From: a virus | Direction: 5' to 3' (one strand) | IMG/VR virus record: IMGVR_UViG_3300007354_000004 | Location: 17,156-81,155 of that record | DNA: 64,000 bases | Shown: positions 44,111-62,767 of the stretch, piece by piece | How positions within the stretch are numbered: position 1 is the first letter of the stretch | Layout of the letters: each line of letters begins with the position of its first letter | The notes under the pieces: model-generated | What the model was told of the DNA's origin: nothing | Seen by the model: the letters and a program-made list of their open reading frames with translations, nothing else | Database searches by the model: none | Position numbers and translations under genes: made by a program

Positions 44111-44269
44111 ATGAAACCAGATAATTCACCCGAACCCCCAGGCTATACGTTGTTATATGATAACCAATCGATCAATGTCTCGTGTGTGGTCTGGTCCATA
44201 ATTTGTATTTTATATCTGCTCGGTATGTTGACTTGTGTAATTGTATCAGATAGCGGGCTTGTAGCTTAG
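44111..44269 (+). CDS. 52-aa membrane protein overlapping a tRNA
   Basis: AAAGGATGAGAG precedes the ATG. A Pro-rich N-terminus leads to one hydrophobic helix. The last five codons, including the TAG stop, lie inside the tRNA-Arg gene, so the mRNA cannot survive tRNA 5' processing intact. Confidence 0.55.
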   Translation: MKPDNSPEPPGYTLLYDNQSINVSCVVWSIICILYLLGMLTCVIVSDSGLVA

Positions 44270-44326
44270 TGGAGAAAGCGCGTGTCTTCTAAACACGATA
44301 TCGCAGGTTCGAGTCCTGCCAAGCCT
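44255..44326 (+). tRNA. tRNA-Arg (TCT)
   Basis: 72 nt: acceptor GGGCTTG/CAAGCCT, D stem GCTT/AAGC, anticodon stem CGTGT/ACACG with loop CTTCTAA (anticodon TCT, reads AGA), T stem GCAGG/CCTGC with TTCGAGT. No encoded CCA. Confidence 0.93.
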
Positions 44327-44335
44327 ACCTACGAC

Positions 44336-44722
44336 ATGGATCAGATTCGTGAATACGACGATTTAACACTGAATCTGTTGGTGGCTCATCTGTTAGGCTG
44401 GACGAATTTATATATGCAGGTATCATTTGGTGATGAGTGGTCTATTCACGGTACTACGCCCGGTGGTTTAGAGCAGTCTGTGCCTAATTTTACAGAAGAT
44501 CTTTCATTGACACTTGATTTATTGAAGGATAACTTTTGGCAGTTATATTACCAAAGTGATAGATTTATGGGTCTGGTGACATCTGATATATCAGATTTAG
44601 AGTTTCATATGGAGTATGCAGATTCACCGCCTAGATCTTTAGTTTTGTCGTGGGTATCTTGGAAAATTTCGGAGATTCAGCGTTTAAATCCTATCAAGCC
44701 CTTAAGGAGACTGTATGGATAA
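44336..44722 (+). CDS. Phage ABA-sandwich-like protein, copy 2
   Basis: ATG 44336 lies ten bases after the tRNA and aligns with the start of its paralogue at 41454 (I-R-E-Y-D-D-L-T-L-N-L-L-V-A-H-L-L-G-W). Same overall length and a final S-L-V-L-S-W-V-S-W-K. No Shine-Dalgarno is visible, so expression may depend on tRNA processing. Confidence 0.62.
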   Translation: MDQIREYDDLTLNLLVAHLLGWTNLYMQVSFGDEWSIHGTTPGGLEQSVPNFTEDLSLTLDLLKDNFWQLYYQSDRFMGLVTSDISDLEFHMEYADSPPRSLVLSWVSWKISEIQRLNPIKPLRRLYG

Positions 44723-45830
44723 GTATCTCAATCAGGTTGTCTGTAAAAGTGCTATAGATTTGCTCAAAGATTTGCCCGATCAGTCTGTACATTGTATTAT
44801 AACTTCCCCGCCTTATTACGGATTGCGCTCGTATTTAGACGAGAATGATCCAAGTAAACCTGAAGAGGTTGGTGCCGAACAAACTCCCGAACAGTATGTT
44901 GAGAGATTAGTTGAAGTATTTCGTGAAGCAGGACGTGTATTACGAAATGACGGAACTCTGTGGTTGAATTTGGGAGATAGTTATGCGGGGGGCGGTAAGG
45001 CATCAGGCAGAACTTGGGAAAACGGCACAGTTCCAAATATGAGTCGTAAACAAGCCAGCAATAAAGGCTCTTTAATTAAAGGTCAGCCAGTACCAGACGG
45101 GTATAAATCTAAAGACCTGTTGGGTATTCCCTTTCGAGTAGCATTTGCTTTGCAGTCTGACGGGTGGTATTGGCGTTCGGTTATGCCGTGGATTAAACCT
45201 AATGCTATGCCAGAGAGTATAAAAGATCGTCCTACTTCTTCGCTGGAATATGTTTTTCTATTTTCTAAATCAAAGAAATATTATTATGACTATGAAAATA
45301 TTTTACGTCCTTATGCTGAGAGCAGTCTAAAAAGAATTAATCATTCAGGTTTTGATCTACAAACTGGGGGAGAGAAGGATTACGGATCAGATTCTTCGCG
45401 TTCTGCTAGAAAAACACTTGAGAATTTTAAGAAGAATATAGATAAAAATAAAGGTAGACGATACCGTAATACAGATGCCTATTACGATTCATTAGATATA
45501 ATGATTGAAGATACAGAAAATCAATTAAATTACTTAAAAGAAGTTCGAGAAAATAGGGGAACTTTGGTTGATAATCAGATTTTGGCGTTTGATATACACG
45601 TAGGACAGTCAAGTTTAGCACACTTTGCATCTTTTCCCCCAAAACTAATCAAACCGATGATTATAGCTGGTTGTTCGATTGGTGGTGTTGTTTTGGATTT
45701 CTTTTGTGGAACGGGTACTACAGGTTTAGTAGCAGTGCAGAGTGGTCGGCAGTTTATCTGTGGAGATCTGAATCCTGAGTATGTAGAGATGGCTCAAAAG
45801 AGAATTCTAGACGGGAGCGGAGGGAGTTAA
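44715..45830 (+). CDS. DNA methyltransferase, N4-cytosine type
   Basis: A 371-residue beta-class enzyme. TSPPYYGLR near residue 33 is the catalytic motif and F-F-C-G-T-G-T-T-G near 334 the AdoMet site; the long middle part is the target-recognition region. TSPPYYGLR is typical of N4-cytosine enzymes. AAGGAGACTGT precedes the ATG. Third beta-class methyltransferase of this region. Confidence 0.88.
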   Translation: MDKYLNQVVCKSAIDLLKDLPDQSVHCIITSPPYYGLRSYLDENDPSKPEEVGAEQTPEQYVERLVEVFREAGRVLRNDGTLWLNLGDSYAGGGKASGRTWENGTVPNMSRKQASNKGSLIKGQPVPDGYKSKDLLGIPFRVAFALQSDGWYWRSVMPWIKPNAMPESIKDRPTSSLEYVFLFSKSKKYYYDYENILRPYAESSLKRINHSGFDLQTGGEKDYGSDSSRSARKTLENFKKNIDKNKGRRYRNTDAYYDSLDIMIEDTENQLNYLKEVRENRGTLVDNQILAFDIHVGQSSLAHFASFPPKLIKPMIIAGCSIGGVVLDFFCGTGTTGLVAVQSGRQFICGDLNPEYVEMAQKRILDGSGGS

Positions 45831-45831
45831 A

Positions 45832-46095
45832 ATGGTAAACTACAAAGATATTCAAGTGGAAAACTCGCATTATATCAGCTTGTCCGCGTGGATGGGGCCG
45901 ATCAAAGACATTCACGGTTATATTTCAGAAGAGTTTGGCGATCCGGTGTTCAAGTTGCGTAAAATTATCTTTGAAGATGGCACTCAGATAGATGTCGAAG
46001 GCGAGCACGACTGTCCTTATCTGTGTGGCGAGACAGAGTTGTACAATGACGAAATAATGTGCAGTCTATTGGAGCAAGAAAATGAAGATCAGTAA
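45832..46095 (+). CDS. hypothetical acidic protein, 87 aa
   Basis: Starts two bases after the methyltransferase stop. Beta-rich, acidic, with C-P-Y-L-C. Overlaps the radical SAM gene start by 14 bases, so it may serve with it. Confidence 0.6.
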   Translation: MVNYKDIQVENSHYISLSAWMGPIKDIHGYISEEFGDPVFKLRKIIFEDGTQIDVEGEHDCPYLCGETELYNDEIMCSLLEQENEDQ

Positions 46096-47452
46096 CGTTC
46101 GGTTGGGGTTTGCAACTAATTCTTCAAGTTCACATAGTATTGTAGTTTTACCAAAAGGCGTGTCTGCTCCGTCTGGCTTTGATGTGGTTGAGGGAGAATA
46201 TGGTTGGGAGAATTTCGTTCTCAAAAATCAGCAGGATAAGTTGTCTTATCTGGCGGCAGCAGTTGGGTCTTCTTTGTTAGAGTTTTACGGGGAAGATCTG
46301 ACTGAAATTATTATGCGCGAGTGGTTTCGCGGGATTCCCTGGTCGAAGGGGTGGTATATCGATCATCAATCAGAAATTGAGATTCCTCATGATCCGATTA
46401 CCAAACAGGTGAGTCAGCTATTCGTTCAAGACTTCTCTCGATTTATGCGTCGGAAAGATGTGGTTGTTCTAGGGGGTAACGATAATAGCGATAGGCGCGA
46501 TTTTGAAGAATATTATCAATACGAAGTAGATTTGCCTAGAGGCTGGAATCTCAAGTGGTACGCACAAAAGTCGGGTGACTGGTGGACGATGTTTTGTGTT
46601 GAAACTGGCGCGAAGATGCGTTTTTCCTTTGAAGAAAACCCGCAAGATCTGTGGCGATCTGTTTATCCTGAGTTGATTGATTTTAAGATTACGGATTATT
46701 GTCCGTTTGACTGTCCGTTTTGCTATCAAGACAGCAGTCGGCAGGGTATTCATGCGTCTCTTGCAGATATTGAATCTTATCTGGAGATGATGAGTAACAG
46801 CGGCGTTTTTGAAATTGCGTTTGGCGGTGGCGAGCCTACGTTGCATCCTGACTTTGTGAAAATTCTACGTAAGACACATAGTTTAGGTATTGTGCCTAAT
46901 TTTACGACGAAGGTAACACCGGAACACTGGTCGTCTGATTTACTGCAGGCGGTGATGGAAGTTGTAGGTGGTGTGGCTGTGTCGGTAGGAAGCACCTGGG
47001 AAGCGGGTAAGTTAAAAGCGGCAGAAGTGTTGTATGGATTACGTGGGAAGATTTCGGCGCATTTTGTAGTTGGCGCGCATCCTGATTGGCGACTGGAAGA
47101 CGTAATTGAATCCTGTGCCGAGAACGAAATTCCGCTGACTTTGTTGGGGTTTAAGGAAGTTGGGCGCGGTACAGATCCAAAACCGCAAATAATTAATCCG
47201 TCTGTGTTGCATAAGGGTTGGCGACTGTCAGTGGATACGTCTTTTGTCGAGCAGTATGCAGATGTAATCGAAGAAGCGGGGATTCCCGATCTGCTGGTTG
47301 TGCCGGGCGAAGGTCGGTTTAGTATGTATATCGATGCAGTTGCACAACGGGCTGGAATTAGCAGTTATCATCCTGACCTGATTGAGTTTGAGCCTCAATA
47401 CTGGAACGATTTGACGGATATTTGGGTAATTTTAGATGAATACGTTAACTAG
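46082..47452 (+). CDS. radical SAM protein with N-terminal NSSSS motif
   Basis: A 456-residue protein. Residues 8-19 read L-G-F-A-T-N-S-S-S-S-H-S, like the GFxSNSSSSSF tag found at the start of many unexplained bacterial and phage proteins. After ~180 residues without recognised fold comes a radical SAM domain: C207-x3-C211-x2-C214 binds the 4Fe-4S cluster and FGGGEPT (247-253) binds AdoMet. Radical SAM enzymes make difficult C-H modifications on peptides, RNA or nucleotides. No SPASM-type Cys cluster is seen at the C-terminus. Substrate unknown; the N-terminal tag or the small neighbours are candidates. Confidence 0.85.
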   Translation: MKISNVRLGFATNSSSSHSIVVLPKGVSAPSGFDVVEGEYGWENFVLKNQQDKLSYLAAAVGSSLLEFYGEDLTEIIMREWFRGIPWSKGWYIDHQSEIEIPHDPITKQVSQLFVQDFSRFMRRKDVVVLGGNDNSDRRDFEEYYQYEVDLPRGWNLKWYAQKSGDWWTMFCVETGAKMRFSFEENPQDLWRSVYPELIDFKITDYCPFDCPFCYQDSSRQGIHASLADIESYLEMMSNSGVFEIAFGGGEPTLHPDFVKILRKTHSLGIVPNFTTKVTPEHWSSDLLQAVMEVVGGVAVSVGSTWEAGKLKAAEVLYGLRGKISAHFVVGAHPDWRLEDVIESCAENEIPLTLLGFKEVGRGTDPKPQIINPSVLHKGWRLSVDTSFVEQYADVIEEAGIPDLLVVPGEGRFSMYIDAVAQRAGISSYHPDLIEFEPQYWNDLTDIWVILDEYVN

Positions 47453-54536: not shown

Positions 54537-55454
54537 ATGACAGCGATGAAAAAGTGTACCAAATGTGGTCGGCTTTTTCCGGCCACGCCTGAATATTTTG
54601 ATCGTGATCCCCATCTTAAATCCGGCTTATACCCCTCTTGTAAAGAATGTTCTGCCGCTAAAGCCAGACCAGGAACGCCCAAGCGCAGATTTATCGAAGG
54701 TAAAGGGGTGCGCTTTCTTAAGAATGGTAAGATGCGGTGTCACGCTACGTCTTGGAGAAAGATTAAGGAAAAAGCTGGACCGGAAGACAGGCTCTTAACC
54801 GAAGAAGAGATGTGGCCCGACTGTCAGTGCGGTAAAGCGGCTGTGCCGGGTCGATATGTGTGTCGTGTGCATGGAGGAACTTCCAGATACTCTATGAATA
54901 AAAGTATAACATCATATGTGAAGGGCAATTTAGCCGATAAAGTTTTATTCGCGCTGCAAGATCCTGAAATTCTGGACCAGCGTAAGAATATGGCTTTATT
55001 GGAGGCGCGTAACGCTCAACTGCTCGAAGAGTTAACCGCTGGTGGTTTGACACAGTACGAACACCTGCAGGCTTTGTATAAAGGTCTGTCTAAAATCGAA
55101 GGCGGCGACGTTCGGGATGGGGTGGATCTCATTCGCGGCACGCTCGATTCTCTCAAAGAGACAAAAGCCGCCTGGGATGAGTTGCGACAGAACATGCGGA
55201 CGATTAAAGATTTGCAGCAAGCCGAAGTTAAGCGCCAGAAAGAAATGCGTCTGACTCTGACTGCTGAACAAGTCATGGCAAAATTCGAGCGGCTGGTGGA
55301 TGCGGTGCTCGAAGGCGTTGAAAAGAACGTTAAAGATCCCGAAATTATAGAGGGTGTGTACCAGCATGTCTCAGGAGCACTCCGAGAATCTATTGGAACG
55401 CCTGGACTTGGCCTTCTCGCAGCGATTGAAGGCCAGAGTCGAGAAGATAACTGA
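54537..55454 (+). CDS. putative terminase small subunit with zinc finger
   Basis: A 305-residue protein directly upstream of the large terminase. Residues 6-38 hold C-T-K-C-G-R-L-F-P...C-K-E-C, the zinc knuckle also found before endonuclease VII/HNH domains. C-Q-C-G and C-R-V-H-G-G-T follow near residue 100. The C-terminal ~190 residues are helical with long coiled-coil-like helices (D-L-Q-Q-A-E-V-K-R-Q-K). Position and helical C-domain suggest packaging-site recognition; the zinc finger is an unusual addition. Confidence 0.6.
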   Translation: MTAMKKCTKCGRLFPATPEYFDRDPHLKSGLYPSCKECSAAKARPGTPKRRFIEGKGVRFLKNGKMRCHATSWRKIKEKAGPEDRLLTEEEMWPDCQCGKAAVPGRYVCRVHGGTSRYSMNKSITSYVKGNLADKVLFALQDPEILDQRKNMALLEARNAQLLEELTAGGLTQYEHLQALYKGLSKIEGGDVRDGVDLIRGTLDSLKETKAAWDELRQNMRTIKDLQQAEVKRQKEMRLTLTAEQVMAKFERLVDAVLEGVEKNVKDPEIIEGVYQHVSGALRESIGTPGLGLLAAIEGQSREDN

Positions 55455-56997
55455 AAAACCGTCCGAGTGGATTGAGCGGTATTTCTATGTGCCTGATCCC
55501 CGCGATCCTGTAACCGGAGAATTTCTATCTCCCGGCCCTATTCGGCTGTCTGAACATCAGAAACGAATTATCGATGAAGCACTCTCTAAAGATGAGCACG
55601 GTAAGCTTAAATATTCTTTGGTAATCTATTCTGCCCCTAAAAAATCTGGAAAGTCGGCTCTAGCATCGGCTGTGGCGATGTATATGGCGTATAGTCGTCC
55701 TTATTCTCAGGTTTATTGTTTGGCGAATGACAAAGAACAGTCTTCGGATCGTATATATGTTCCTATAAAGACTTGTTTTAAGTTGCACAACAATTTGAAT
55801 GGTCCATTCAAGGGTGAAAATCCAAATAAAACAGAAGTTTTTCTATCTAATGGGACTAGAATTAAAGCGTTACCGTGTGACGCGGTAGGTGAGGCCGGAT
55901 CTCAGCCTCTGTTAAGTGTGGTAAGTGAGGCGTGGGGTTGGACTTCGGACATTAAAAAACAACTCTGGAGCGAGATCTCCGTGCCACCGACCCTACAGGG
56001 GTACGCAATGCAGTGGGTTGAATCCTATGCGGGTGAAGTTGGAAAGTCCACAATTCTAGAGGGACTATATAAATTAGCTGTTAAAGAGGGCGAGCCTCAT
56101 CCCGACTTTTTAGACTTGGAATCGAGCGGGGATCCGGTTGTTTGGGTGAATGAATCGGCAGGTTTGTTCTGTTATTGGGATCACGAACCTAGAATGCCGT
56201 GGCAGACTCCAGAGTATTACGGGATTCAATCTAAGCGACTGAGTCCTTCCGAGTTTGCCAGAATTCACCGCAACGAGTGGGTAACGGCAACCGATGTTTT
56301 TGTTCAAGCCGAGTGGTGGCACTCTCTTAGTAAGAACTTAGGTCCAATTAGCCCTTACACGCCGGTTGTGATCGGTCTGGACGGAGCGATCTCGAATGAT
56401 TATGCTGCTTTGGTAGGTGTGACCAGAGATCCCGATAACAATGAACATACAGCGGTAAGATTCTGTTATATTTTTACTCCGAAACGAAGTGGTGGTACGA
56501 TTAAGATATCGGAAACTGTTGAGCCATTACTGAGATTGTTGTGTAAGAAGTACAATGTCGTATGTGTGGCTTATGACAAATACCAGTTAGAGGATATGGC
56601 TCAGCGGTTGCGCAAAGAGAGCCTGGTGTGGATGTACAATTTCTCGCAGCAAACGGAGAGATCGGTTGCTGATAAGTCGTTGTATGATAGCATTATTAAC
56701 CGGACGATCTGGTGGGATATTAATGGCGAAGGTTTGCCCTTCAACGGTGAGGTTCCGTCGCTCTACCAGCACATTACTCAGGCGGGAGCCAAGACGGACG
56801 GCGGTAAATTTCGGCTGGATAAACTCTCGGATGACGCCAAGATTGACGCGGCGGTGGCAACCTCGATGGCGCGGGAGATGTGCAAGCGGTTGATGATCAC
56901 CAATAAGGACAAAAAGACGGAGTCAATCGTTCGACAGCACACCAGAGGGAAAATGACGGATGATGAATTTATGCGAGCAGTAGCGGAGATCCGGTAA
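55366..56997 (+). CDS. terL: terminase large subunit
   Basis: A 543-residue packaging motor from ATG 55366, overlapping the upstream gene by 89 bases. The ATPase has the Walker A-like S-A-P-K-K-S-G-K-S near residue 92 and, further on, a hydrophobic strand ending V-S-E-A-W-G. The nuclease domain has V-I-G-L-D-G-A near 338 and later V-A-Y-D-K-Y and D-A-A-V-A. It cuts and pumps phage DNA into proheads through the portal encoded next. Confidence 0.92.
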   Translation: MSQEHSENLLERLDLAFSQRLKARVEKITEKPSEWIERYFYVPDPRDPVTGEFLSPGPIRLSEHQKRIIDEALSKDEHGKLKYSLVIYSAPKKSGKSALASAVAMYMAYSRPYSQVYCLANDKEQSSDRIYVPIKTCFKLHNNLNGPFKGENPNKTEVFLSNGTRIKALPCDAVGEAGSQPLLSVVSEAWGWTSDIKKQLWSEISVPPTLQGYAMQWVESYAGEVGKSTILEGLYKLAVKEGEPHPDFLDLESSGDPVVWVNESAGLFCYWDHEPRMPWQTPEYYGIQSKRLSPSEFARIHRNEWVTATDVFVQAEWWHSLSKNLGPISPYTPVVIGLDGAISNDYAALVGVTRDPDNNEHTAVRFCYIFTPKRSGGTIKISETVEPLLRLLCKKYNVVCVAYDKYQLEDMAQRLRKESLVWMYNFSQQTERSVADKSLYDSIINRTIWWDINGEGLPFNGEVPSLYQHITQAGAKTDGGKFRLDKLSDDAKIDAAVATSMAREMCKRLMITNKDKKTESIVRQHTRGKMTDDEFMRAVAEIR

Positions 56998-58436
56998 TGC
57001 CCTATTTAATCAAGGACGTATTAGATCGCTCGGTGGTCGAGAGTCCGAGCATAAAAACAGGGTTTGGGGTGCACCCCCTGATTATGTCAATCGCATCATT
57101 GGCGGATGAAGTACCCCCCTGGTCGGTGACTCCGCACGAGCGCGATAAGGTATTAAGAAATTTCTGGCATAAAGAGCCTGTTTTAGCCGGCGTAGTCACC
57201 GCTTCGGTTGCCAGAAATGCGTCGTTTGCCTGGGAAGTGGTGCCATCCGATCCGACCAAACCGAAACCTAAAAATACTCTGCGCGCCGTAACCAAGATGT
57301 TGAATATGTCAGATCGCGGTGCGGGTTGGGTGACGTTTCAGCAGAAAGTGTTGCTGGACATGTTCTGTCAAGACAACGGGGCGTTTATCGAAGTTATTCG
57401 TAGAGAAGATCGCCCCGATTCGCCTCCGATCAATCTTGCTCAACTCGATTCGGCGCGGTGTGTCAGGACGGGTGATCCGTATTATCCGGTCGAATACGAA
57501 GATATCTGGGGCAAGCGCACCGTTTTAAACTGGTGGAACGTGATCCCGATGTCTTTGTATCCCGCCCCGATTGAGGAAGCCTATGGGGTGCAATATTCAC
57601 CTTTGACCGTGGCGTTGATGGCGGCTCAGATTTTGAGAGATATCGCCATTTATAAACGAGAAAAAGTCTCAGGTGGCAATACCAGGGCGATTTACTTTGT
57701 AACCGGCGTTACGCAGGACGTGATCGATGATGCGAAAGCGTGGTCACGCGAGCAGAATATGAATCTCGGTTTGTATCGGTATTCCGATCCGATTGTCATC
57801 CCCGGTCTGGATCCGACCAACCCCGTTAAAGTAGACAAGATCGATATCGCGTCGTTGCCGGATAATTTTGACGAAGAATCAACCTATAAATGGTACATGG
57901 TCCAACTCGCTAATGCTTTCGGGATGGACTATCAGGAGTTCGCCCCCCTGCCGGGCGGGAATTTAGGATCGTCGCAGCAGTCTAAGATTCAACATCAAAA
58001 AACGCAGGGCAAAGGTCCGGCGCTGATTATGTCTAAGACTGAGCACGTCCTGAATAATAACGGAATTCTGCCTGAGACGGTCGAGTTTAGATATCTGGAA
58101 CACGATCTACAATCTCAGATTGACAAAGCAAATGCGGCCTTCATTCGGAGTAAAGATCGATCCATTCAGTTGACTTCGGGCTACTTAGATCCGGAAGGCG
58201 CTTTGGATATGGCGGTTTTGCATCGGGATATTCCCGAACACATTGCCGAAGGCGTTAAAGCAAGAGGCTTGGCGGAACAGTGGTATCTCAGCCGCATGAA
58301 TCGCCAGCCGCAAAATTCATCTCAACAAATTCTGAGTGGAATGCAGTCTCAGCAGGTGCGCAGTCATGGAACTAATCATACGACCGATTTACCCGAATCC
58401 GAGGGACTATCCGGCGAATCTCCTGCCGAAGATTGA
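56997..58436 (+). CDS. portal protein
   Basis: A 479-residue protein starting on the last base of the terminase stop. Alpha/beta core with R-N-A-S-F-A-W-E-V, A-Q-L-D-S-A-R and the W-W-N-V-I-P-M-S stretch, followed by a Gly/Asn/Gln-rich and a helical clip-and-stem region; the last 50 residues are disordered. Length, order after terminase and pattern support a portal. Confidence 0.87.
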   Translation: MPYLIKDVLDRSVVESPSIKTGFGVHPLIMSIASLADEVPPWSVTPHERDKVLRNFWHKEPVLAGVVTASVARNASFAWEVVPSDPTKPKPKNTLRAVTKMLNMSDRGAGWVTFQQKVLLDMFCQDNGAFIEVIRREDRPDSPPINLAQLDSARCVRTGDPYYPVEYEDIWGKRTVLNWWNVIPMSLYPAPIEEAYGVQYSPLTVALMAAQILRDIAIYKREKVSGGNTRAIYFVTGVTQDVIDDAKAWSREQNMNLGLYRYSDPIVIPGLDPTNPVKVDKIDIASLPDNFDEESTYKWYMVQLANAFGMDYQEFAPLPGGNLGSSQQSKIQHQKTQGKGPALIMSKTEHVLNNNGILPETVEFRYLEHDLQSQIDKANAAFIRSKDRSIQLTSGYLDPEGALDMAVLHRDIPEHIAEGVKARGLAEQWYLSRMNRQPQNSSQQILSGMQSQQVRSHGTNHTTDLPESEGLSGESPAED

Positions 58437-58891: not shown

Positions 58892-60403
58892 ATGCCATAT
58901 ACAATTGTGAAGCGGAACAATCGTTTTTGTGTGCATAAGAAAAACGCAGACGGATCGGTCGGTGAGCGGATTGCGTGTCACGATACTAAGCAAAGCGCCA
59001 TTGACCAGATTGGAGCAATTGAGTCTAACGAAAAAGCTATCAAAGAGCAAGATCTTGAAATCTTGATGGTTCAATCTGAGGCTCTACTGAATTTGATGTA
59101 TGCTTTGGTGTGGGCGGATCGACTTGATGATGCAACTCAGGTTGTGAGTCGAATTACCGAACGAAACGAGAAGATTCGTGGCTTGATTTATCTTGCTGAA
59201 AGATATGGATACCGCGACGATAAAGAGACTTCAACTCGTTATTACACTGAAGCCAGACAATTAATTGACACGATTGAAAACAAGACAGCAAGAGCATACA
59301 CTCTAGCAAGACTGGCGACAAGTATGGCGGATGTCGGATTTATCGATCAAGCTCTAGAGATTGCTTATAGTCTTACCGAGTTAGCGCAGAAGGACGCGGA
59401 TAAGCTCAAGTCTTATATCGAAAGTAAAATTCCCGATGCGTCAGTGAATAAGTCCTATGTGACGTTCAAGCAGGACGAGAACGGAGATTGGTGGTTCATT
59501 GGTCTGTACTCGAATAAATTTAAAGATCGGGAAGCGGAGATTATCTCTGAGGAAGCGCATCGGGAATATACCGAGTGGGCGCGAGATAAAGGTATCAAGC
59601 CGCAGATCACGCTTTTCCATATGCCCCGCGCTCAGCCTGGTTTCTGGTATTCGGTCATGCAGGCTTATGAGAAGGGCATGATCCGCACCGAGACTATCAA
59701 TACCATGCTGCGCGACTTCTACAAAGATTACGCGGTAGCTGAGGCGGAACGAGTCTTTTATGCTAACGGGTTTGTCGGTGTGGCGGGCAAAGTTTACAAA
59801 GGTCGTGAAGCGTGGATTAATAACCTGAGTAACTATCCTGACGAACTCGGTATGAGTCATGGTTTTATTCCCATAGAACTCGATGATAATATATATACGA
59901 AGTACCGATCTTTTGAAATGTCCATATTGCCGAAGAGTCGGGCGGCTAATATCTGGACCAAAGTCGATTTTGTGGAGGGCACAATGCCGTTGGATGCGAA
60001 AGATCAAGAGTTTCTGGACAGCATTCAGCAGGGTACGGCTGAGGAAGTCGATACTGCTACTGAAGAAACGCGCCAGCAACTCGAAGATAAGGGTGTTGAG
60101 TTTAAGGAAAACGAGACGCCTGAGATCACGGTTGATACCATGATCAACAAGCTGGTTGAAACGATGAAGTGGGACGAATTCGGTCAGGCTCTACACCAGC
60201 AACTGACTGAAATCAACTCGCGTTTCGATCAGATCGAAAACCGTTTGAAAGAAGTCGAACAAACAGAAGATGAGAAGGTAGCCAACCTTTACCAACCGAA
60301 CTGGCAGCAGTTTTTGCCGAAGAAAGAAGGTGAAGAGAAGAAAGTCGAAGAGCAGAAGCATTTCGATTTTCTGAGCGCGCTGCTGACGCCGAAGCAGAAC
60401 TAG
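58892..60403 (+). CDS. capsid maturation protease/scaffold fusion with helical-repeat insert
   Basis: A 503-residue protein before the major capsid gene. Residues 1-50 are the small N-terminal module (Y-T-I-V-K-R...I-A-C-H-D-T-K-Q-S-A) common in capsid-associated phage proteins. Residues ~55-195 are TPR-like helical repeats (L-A-R-L-A-T-S-M-A-D-V-G-F-I-D-Q-A-L). Residues ~205-375 resemble prohead proteases, with S-H-G-F-I-P-I and F-E-M-S-I-L-P-K-S-R-A-A-N. The C-terminal ~130 residues form an acidic coiled coil like a scaffold. The catalytic residues could not be fixed by eye. Confidence 0.62.
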   Translation: MPYTIVKRNNRFCVHKKNADGSVGERIACHDTKQSAIDQIGAIESNEKAIKEQDLEILMVQSEALLNLMYALVWADRLDDATQVVSRITERNEKIRGLIYLAERYGYRDDKETSTRYYTEARQLIDTIENKTARAYTLARLATSMADVGFIDQALEIAYSLTELAQKDADKLKSYIESKIPDASVNKSYVTFKQDENGDWWFIGLYSNKFKDREAEIISEEAHREYTEWARDKGIKPQITLFHMPRAQPGFWYSVMQAYEKGMIRTETINTMLRDFYKDYAVAEAERVFYANGFVGVAGKVYKGREAWINNLSNYPDELGMSHGFIPIELDDNIYTKYRSFEMSILPKSRAANIWTKVDFVEGTMPLDAKDQEFLDSIQQGTAEEVDTATEETRQQLEDKGVEFKENETPEITVDTMINKLVETMKWDEFGQALHQQLTEINSRFDQIENRLKEVEQTEDEKVANLYQPNWQQFLPKKEGEEKKVEEQKHFDFLSALLTPKQN

Positions 60404-60415
60404 GAGTCTATATCT

Positions 60416-61867
60416 ATGGATGAGCAACAGTTGATGCAGGCATTTGCAAAAATGCTGCGCAATGAGGTTGAGAAGCACGATCTCCCCTCTGGGTTTACGC
60501 TGACCACGAACTTCATGCACGGGGTCAACGGCGTCTTCGGCGGGGCGGGTATTTCTCAAGACATCTTTTCCACGCGCATTAAACCGCGTGGCATTTTGGG
60601 GATGTTGCCCGCTTTCGGTGCGCGTGACACACACCCCCTGGTTGGTTTTCTGACGGGCTTTACTTCGGGCGATGGCTCGGCCAGTTATCAGGATGCTCCG
60701 TGTGATGATCCTCCGACCGCTGGTAACATCAAAAGCTGTAAGATCGGGTCGGCTTTCGGTCGCTTCATGGCGGCTACCGATCCCCTGCAGATGGACCGCA
60801 TTGGTGAGATTATCAATCGCGGCGAATTCACCGACCTGCGGGTCGTGAACGATCCTATTCTGGATTCGAGCCTGATTGTTCCGAATGCCATGTCGCCGTC
60901 TGCTACGCGGGCGATCCGCCAAGAAGTTCTGGCGCGTTTCCTCGCGCTGGGCGCTTACTTTGAGCAGGTGCTCTGCCCGATGGTCTGGGAAGGCGACACA
61001 TCGAATAACTCGGACAATGACGGGTATCAGGAGTTCATGGGCTTCCAGAACCTTGTCAAGACCGGGCATGTCGATGTGACGACCAATGAGTCGTGTCCGT
61101 CGCTGGATGCGGATGTCAAAGATGCGAATTACACGAAGGTTGAAGATAACGCCGCGTGGATCTTCCATCTGATGACGACCATGTATCGCTACGTCCTGTT
61201 TAATGCTCAGCGCATGGGTTTCATGCCGGTGAACTGGGCATGGGTGATGCCGGATAGTCTGTTCCGTACCCTGACTGACTACTGGCCTTGCGTGTATGCG
61301 AGCTATCGCTGTAACGCGACGGATAATGATCTGTCGAACAGTACAGACGCTTTGCAAATGCGCCAGATGTCGGATCAGATGTACACCGGGCACTACCTCC
61401 TGATTGACGGTGTTCGCGTTCCGGTTGTGACCGATGACTGTATGCCAATCGATACTAACACGACCGACGCGAATGTGCCGAATCCGTGCATGGCTTCGGA
61501 TATTTATCTGATCCCCTTCACGGTGCAGGGTGGTCGTCCTGTGACCTACTTCGAGTATTTCGACTTCAACGGCCCGAACGGTGTTTCTGAAGCCGTTGCT
61601 GCGGGTTGGGCGTCGAGCGATATCATGGTTGCGGACGGCGGACGCTTCCTGATTACTAAGTCACGTACCTATACGTGTATGCAGTGGGAAGCTCTTACTA
61701 AACTGCGACTCCGACTCTTAACTCCTATGCTTTCCGGCAGGATCCAGAACGTACTCTACTGTCCGTTGCAAATGACGCGGCAGCCGTTCCCCGATAATCC
61801 ATATAATGTGGATGGCGGTAACGAGACCGGAACATATAATAGCCCCTATTACTCTGACCGTCAGTAG
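60416..61867 (+). CDS. major capsid protein
   Basis: A 483-residue protein, GC-richer and codon-biased relative to its neighbours, as expected for the most expressed virion gene. An N-terminal ~60-residue arm, a Gly-rich core and a helix with A-T-R-A-I-R-Q-E-V-L-A-R-F fit an HK97-like capsid subunit. Position after the protease and before a strong terminator supports the call. Confidence 0.85.
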   Translation: MDEQQLMQAFAKMLRNEVEKHDLPSGFTLTTNFMHGVNGVFGGAGISQDIFSTRIKPRGILGMLPAFGARDTHPLVGFLTGFTSGDGSASYQDAPCDDPPTAGNIKSCKIGSAFGRFMAATDPLQMDRIGEIINRGEFTDLRVVNDPILDSSLIVPNAMSPSATRAIRQEVLARFLALGAYFEQVLCPMVWEGDTSNNSDNDGYQEFMGFQNLVKTGHVDVTTNESCPSLDADVKDANYTKVEDNAAWIFHLMTTMYRYVLFNAQRMGFMPVNWAWVMPDSLFRTLTDYWPCVYASYRCNATDNDLSNSTDALQMRQMSDQMYTGHYLLIDGVRVPVVTDDCMPIDTNTTDANVPNPCMASDIYLIPFTVQGGRPVTYFEYFDFNGPNGVSEAVAAGWASSDIMVADGGRFLITKSRTYTCMQWEALTKLRLRLLTPMLSGRIQNVLYCPLQMTRQPFPDNPYNVDGGNETGTYNSPYYSDRQ

Positions 61868-61957: not shown

Positions 61958-62767
61958 ATGGGTAAAATACACAATCTTCAAGGAAAACGTTTTGGTAAGT
62001 GGTTAGTGTTAGAGGAAATACCTTCTGACATGTATGAAAATACAAAGTGGAAGGTAAGATGTGATTGCGGTAAAGAAACAACAATAACAGGTAGAGCGTT
62101 AGTTTATCATAAGTCAACACACTGCGGATGTGAGCGAACTAAAAAACTAACAAAACACCCTCCGCAACAAGGAATTCCGGGCGGGAAAAACTTCAAAGAT
62201 GAAACTGGAAAAGTCTATGGAAAATTAACTGTTATACGTCCTACAAGACAAAACGCTAAGAAAGAATGGTATTGGGAATGCAAGTGTTCCTGCGGAGAAA
62301 CAGCTGAAGTTAGAGGATCACATTTACGAAGTGGAACAATAGTGTCTTGTGGGTGTGTACTTAAAGAACTTAGACAAAACCAAAATAAAACTCACGGGTT
62401 AACTTACACGCCTGAATATGTAAGAGCAAGAAACAGAAAAAGGGAACGAAAAGAAGCAATTCTAGATAAAAACTGGACTGGTGTAATGGAACATCAGTTA
62501 AGAACGTTATTTCAGCAGTGTGTTTTATGTGGAGTAACAGAGAAAGAACATCAAGAAAAATTCGGACAGCCTTTACATGTTGATCATGTACATCCTCTCA
62601 AAGATGGAAATGGCCTTTACTACGGAAATGCCACAATTTTATGTGCAGATTGCAACAAAAGAAAACACGCTAAGAAGTTAGAAGATTTGGACGAATGGAC
62701 GCGAAATCGTTTATTGCTTACAGCGGATTTATTTAAGGTTCTATTTGAACCTAAGGAGTCTCTCTAA
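61958..62767 (+). CDS. free-standing HNH endonuclease with two AP2-like zinc domains
   Basis: A 269-residue protein. Two N-terminal repeats (G-K-R-F-G-K-W...C-D-C-G-K-E...H-C-G-C, and G-K-V-Y-G-K-L...C-S-C-G-E...S-C-G-C) are the DNA-binding modules of phage homing endonucleases. The C-terminal HNH domain shows C-V-L-C, H-V-D-H-V-H-P and L-C-A-D-C-N-K. The gene is visibly AT-richer than the capsid genes around it and lies behind a terminator, as expected for a mobile insertion. Confidence 0.88.
   Translation: MGKIHNLQGKRFGKWLVLEEIPSDMYENTKWKVRCDCGKETTITGRALVYHKSTHCGCERTKKLTKHPPQQGIPGGKNFKDETGKVYGKLTVIRPTRQNAKKEWYWECKCSCGETAEVRGSHLRSGTIVSCGCVLKELRQNQNKTHGLTYTPEYVRARNRKRERKEAILDKNWTGVMEHQLRTLFQQCVLCGVTEKEHQEKFGQPLHVDHVHPLKDGNGLYYGNATILCADCNKRKHAKKLEDLDEWTRNRLLLTADLFKVLFEPKESL

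Follow-up and report, generated by a model that had tools for sequence, protein, structure and literature searches.

The open reading frame at 58892-60403 on the + strand of this uncultivated virus record (81,155 bases, of which a 64,000-nucleotide part, the window, was analyzed) probably encodes the head maturation protease of a tailed phage. The predicted product is a distant member of the HK97 gp4/S78 type in which an N-terminal module, a helical insert, a protease domain and a coiled-coil scaffold tail follow one another, and whose N-terminal part would be cleared as a prodomain. The protease is an ordinary enzyme; the insert is an unusual, lineage-specific addition, single so far. The frame is open throughout and starts with ATG, giving a protein of 503 aa, and the choice of start is backed by the counterpart in a relative (L002), which begins with the same five residues, MPYTI. 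The protein is laid out as follows, in window coordinates:

58892..59035, + strand: N-terminal module (residues 1-48) of three strands plus one helix, with kin in L002 and L004 and weaker kin in L018, L028 and L048
59036..59446, + strand: helical insert, residues 49-185, a gap in L002 and L004, helical in AlphaFold2
59447..59962, + strand: protease domain, residues 186-357, of distant HK97 gp4/S78 type by alignments, profile-profile comparison and fold matches
59618..59620, + strand: His243, putative catalytic residue, in 23/23 proteins, aligned with H65 of HK97 gp4
59630..59725, + strand: in-core insertion of ~32 residues, 247-278, filled in the window protein, L002 and L004
59855..59857, + strand: Ser322 in GMSHGF, putative nucleophile, in 23/23 proteins, aligned with S114 (GMSVGF) of HK97 gp4
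59915..59917, + strand: Glu342, putative third catalytic residue, in 22/22 proteins reaching the site, aligned with E141 of HK97 gp4
60131..60316, + strand: predicted helical or coiled-coil tail, residues 414-475, probable scaffold part by model and heptads, with kin in L002

The gene sits in a head gene cluster with the order terminase, portal, a gene of 183 aa, protease and capsid. Its neighbors on either side of the protease, the portal and major capsid genes, are assigned by position and conservation only; a library search returned no significant match for the portal protein and none for the capsid protein. The neighboring head genes are:

55354..56997, + strand: terminase large subunit (phrog_9, 1e-35)
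56997..58436, + strand: probable portal protein, from its position, which relatives conserve
60416..61867, + strand: probable major capsid protein, from its position and its conservation in relatives

By eye, the capsid protein is without a long scaffold domain of its own. Soon after the capsid gene lies an HNH endonuclease gene (window 61958-62767; Pfam HNH, 1.7e-9). Elsewhere in the window, a predicted tRNA-Arg (44255-44329) overlaps the start of a mechanically called ORF (44282-44722), and genes for a DNA methyltransferase and a radical SAM protein lie close together (44715-47452).

Direct searches with the window protein found no relative in IMG/VR or among named phages, and relatives were reached through searches with the terminase, two small protease alignments, the portal and a protease-core alignment. 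The terminase search led to L002 (IMGVR_UViG_3300044712_000936) and the two-row protease alignment to L004 (IMGVR_UViG_3300044712_000751); both carry sample number 3300044712, the closest comparison thus being one with two contigs from one sample. The L002 counterpart, of 411 residues, is 54% identical in the first 48 residues and 43% identical from residue 182 onward (332 aligned columns). The contig of L004 stops beyond the serine motif and truncates its protein, and that of a third close relative (L009) breaks off within the portal gene, short of the protease. The resulting family set comprises 23 distinct proteins, one per record, the window protein included. L037, a truncated near-copy of L036, was left out, as were duplicates of records (L003, L005-L008, L022, L023, L026, L030-L032, L038, L042, L044, L045). 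An alignment of the first 11 cores, searched against 20 records, found a match in 12 of them; the other eight are mostly short contigs, two being over 50 kb. The records of L010 (G004, 54 kb) and L016 (G010, 58 kb) hold terminase relatives and yielded no family protease by profile. Scans of genome contigs with alignments A5 and A4 gave no match. Among named phages, the terminase had distant matches in 17 records (20-29% identity), and neither the capsid protein nor family cores L024, L021 and L028 had any. In another relative (L017:1428-3983), the terminase ORF looks by eye to be interrupted by an intein-like stretch.

Within the family, D212, P237, H243 and S322 are invariant in all 23 cores, and E342, counted by eye on the 23-core alignment, occurs in each of the 22 cores extending that far. 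Profile-profile comparison (hhalign) of the family cores with 10 HK97-like proteases scored 93.3% (E 2.8e-7, 131 columns), and control comparisons with the capsid and terminase alignments scored 1.4% and 0.2%, respectively. The same alignment places H243, S322 and E342 on H65, S114 and E141 of HK97 gp4, which we infer from conservation to be the catalytic residues of that enzyme. Neither Pfam Peptidase_S78 (PF04586) nor NCBIfam proheadase_HK97 (TIGR01543) matched the window protein or its core, while HK97 gp4, run as a positive control, matched both; kinship to the HK97 protease is therefore distant.

Whole-protein modeling with AlphaFold2 used an alignment of 11 sequences, none homologous over the insert, and gave a mean pLDDT of 65.7 and a pTM of 0.46. 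The N-terminal module reached pLDDT 92-94 up to residue 40, blocks of the protease domain (residues 191 to 350) ranged from 63 to 91, and the insert and tail were of low confidence. The in-core insertion is partly helical in this model; at the same site, L047 has a shorter, different stretch. A structure search of the PDB with the whole model gave no match reaching E 0.001 among the matches listed, and the only protease among the 50 listed was T4 gp21 (two chains, prob 0.96 and 0.90), the better of these at prob 0.96, E 0.033, TM by target 0.51 and rmsd 6.6 (PDB 5jbl). Four rows ranked above gp21 were ribosome or release-factor entries (prob 0.33-0.63). In a viral structure library, 16 matches had E 0.001 or better, comprising five prohead or head maturation proteases, nine unnamed proteins, one Dps and one uncharacterised protein. 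Most matches in this library had a large rmsd because the whole chain was aligned, and the cleanest was to a prohead protease (rmsd 3.9 over 171 columns, E 0.0017). Sequence searches of the PDB returned nothing, or only weak unrelated matches at E 0.26 and higher. The initial annotation had read the protein as a maturation protease and had proposed structure prediction as a check. The prediction supports a protease fold, through T4 gp21 and the viral-library prohead proteases, and together with gene position, the conserved H, S and E residues and the profile-profile score of 93% it upholds assignment to a distant HK97 gp4/S78-type serine protease.

Downstream of the protease domain, helices are predicted at low confidence for residues 414-424 and 427-467 (blocks at pLDDT 31-50), and residues 427-467 show a heptad pattern whose score was reached by 6 of 2000 shuffles. 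The coiled-coil scaffold suggested earlier for this region is plausible by prediction.

The insert itself is clearly delimited. Proteins P0002 (L002, 411 aa) and P0003 (L004) align with the window protein on both of its flanks and are without the segment: residues 49-185 are missing in L002, and L004 has ~15 residues in their place. The proposal that ~140 helical residues split the N-terminal module from the protease-like domain therefore holds, at ~137 residues (49-185) bounded by these alignments and predicted as helical in both AlphaFold2 runs. Searches with the insert in IMG/VR, named phages, plasmids and the 20 records recovered nothing but itself, no second copy was found in the 81 kb record, and among the 23 family proteins it occurs in the window protein alone. 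Since the counterparts in both closest relatives lack it, the insert is most simply a gain in the window lineage. In a tree of the cores, the window protein, L002 and L004 form a clade (support 100/99) within which L002 and L004 pair (91/51); one gain on the window branch would be the simplest account, and the alternative would be an older gain followed by loss in the ancestor of L002 and L004. Descent of the insert from the SFxELD-type region found before the protease in 12 relatives was also considered, and no relation was detected (hhalign 1.1%; as a control, L011, left out together with its neighbor L041, scored 95.3%). As for its function, the insert would most likely be a block used in docking or packing, placed on the prodomain side and outside the catalytic machinery.

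The region in which the insert lies is highly variable. With start codons picked mechanically, the stretch before the protease core ranges from 14 residues (L046) to 571 (L034, intein counted) across the 23 proteins, the second longest being 407 residues (L047), and the protease core thus needs no such region. A model of the window's N-terminal module, built from three of the six proteins concerned, scored above the inclusion threshold in 6 of 23 (window, L002, L004, L018, L028, L048). Pfam was run on 22 of the proteins, all but L019, and DUF6582 was above cut-off in six of them (L021, L033, L035, L036, L039, L040); L034 has a weak and interrupted match to its PHROG counterpart. The protease ORF of L025 (L025:11384-13132) carries an N-terminal HNH endonuclease domain in frame (phrog_3593, 5.3e-25), and the protease gene of L034 (L034:4288-7005) contains an intein with an HNH-like region (Pfam Intein_splicing PF14890, 3.1e-16) that splits the module before the protease. 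The absence of such an insert from standard prohead proteases, remarked on at first reading, stands for the 10 HK97-like proteases compared, and among the papers that literature searches listed, none was, by its title or the opening of its abstract, about a protease of this kind carrying a TPR or helical insert; the surprise is lessened within the family, where the region before the protease often varies. Given this variation, one HNH fusion and one intein included, and the presence of the insert in one virus only, it is possible, if somewhat unlikely, that the virus simply tolerates the insert, as a helical spacer without a special job in a freely varying region. Against such a spacer, the reading frame remains uninterrupted through the insert, and in one of five models the insert folds on its own at a mean pLDDT of 81.

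The fold of the insert is a single-sequence prediction. In the whole-protein model the insert is helical, with a mean pLDDT of 43-65 in 10-residue blocks; folded alone, it forms four long helices, the best of the five models having a pTM of 0.69 and the other four a mean pLDDT of 51-66. It was initially described as TPR-like, and we consider it possible but unlikely that it is a true TPR-type binding domain recruiting a specific partner, whether a phage internal protein or a host factor, into the prohead. In favor of such a domain, Pfam returned five matches for the insert alone, four of them TPR families and the fifth RPN7 (E 0.0068-0.11), NCBIfam returned a TPR-like regulator at 0.015, and none of 10 shuffles of the insert gave a TPR match (four single unrelated matches were seen). 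However, every Pfam match lay below its curated cut-off (the best, TPR_19, at 17.1 bits against a cut-off of 25), and pair scores among three candidate repeats were reached by 44%, 5.4% and 22% of shuffles. The model with four long helices shows no clear TPR hairpins, no row named TPR appeared among the 50 matches listed in the structure searches, both of those with the insert model included, and no partner was seen. Foldseek gave the insert model a best E of 0.26, with designed helical-repeat proteins at E 0.7-2.3 (prob 0.28 or less). A second structure search returned ion-channel helices, PhoU-like proteins and designed bundles at Z 9.4-11.3, values common among unrelated helical bundles, and one designed helical-repeat protein (Z 9.9, 80 residues). 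Thus, the helical part of the initial description stands, while the repeat label is weakly supported and the insert is possibly TPR-like. More speculatively still, and with rather low probability, the stretch before the protease may be a swappable slot for folded domains, here a TPR-like one, that sets prohead cargo or protease timing.

Composition hints at a foreign origin for the insert, with values that lie within the range of its neighbors: third-position GC of the insert is 0.39, whereas neighboring coding windows average 0.55 (SD 0.09, lowest 0.33), and the codon score is near the low end of those windows, which were scored on their own usage and so favored. While these values and the occurrence on one contig only might point to a chimera from metagenome assembly or to an intervening intron or intein, this is highly improbable: a single reading frame runs uninterrupted through both joins, Rfam gave no match at gathering scores, Pfam gave no intein match in the window protein (though it detects the intein of L034), and the 180-base stretches around the joins share no direct repeat of at least 9 bases.

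Like the protease gene described here, the gene of HK97 gp4 (Peptidase_S78 PF04586, TIGR01543) lies directly before the capsid gene, and the two proteins align at H, S, E and one D. The HK97 genome has the same order of terminase, portal, protease and capsid, but has no gene between portal and protease. At 225 aa, HK97 gp4 is far shorter than the 503-aa window protein, which has in addition an N-terminal module, the 137-residue helical insert, the ~32-residue in-core insertion and a coiled-coil tail. L002 and L004 share the N-terminal module and the in-core insertion (and, in L002, the tail), but not the 137-residue insert. HK97 and D3 rely on a maturation protease and on a scaffold domain located at the N-terminus of their capsid protein (PMC12749128). 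T4 gp21 (PDB 5jbl) matches the window model in fold and not in sequence, and its matched chain of 165 residues is without such an insert. An N-terminal region that blocks the active site is a known theme in T4 gp21: according to PMC9958956, this region blocks the catalytic center before activation, gp21 is implied to cleave itself, and once active it degrades the inner scaffold core.

We infer that the window protease may follow a comparable course. The coiled-coil tail would carry the protease into the growing prohead; once the shell is complete, the protease would become active and cut itself and its neighbors, and the N-terminal part, together with the insert, would be removed as a prodomain. 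Everything N-terminal to residue 186 would then act on the prodomain side, with the insert contributing extra volume or a surface for docking.

This group of capsid proteases escapes the curated Pfam and NCBIfam models compared here. Within it, nature offers a matched comparison between the capsid protease of the window virus, which has the insert, and those of L002 and L004, which lack it. Such a pair could reveal whether packaging or timing, or neither, depends on the region preceding the protease.
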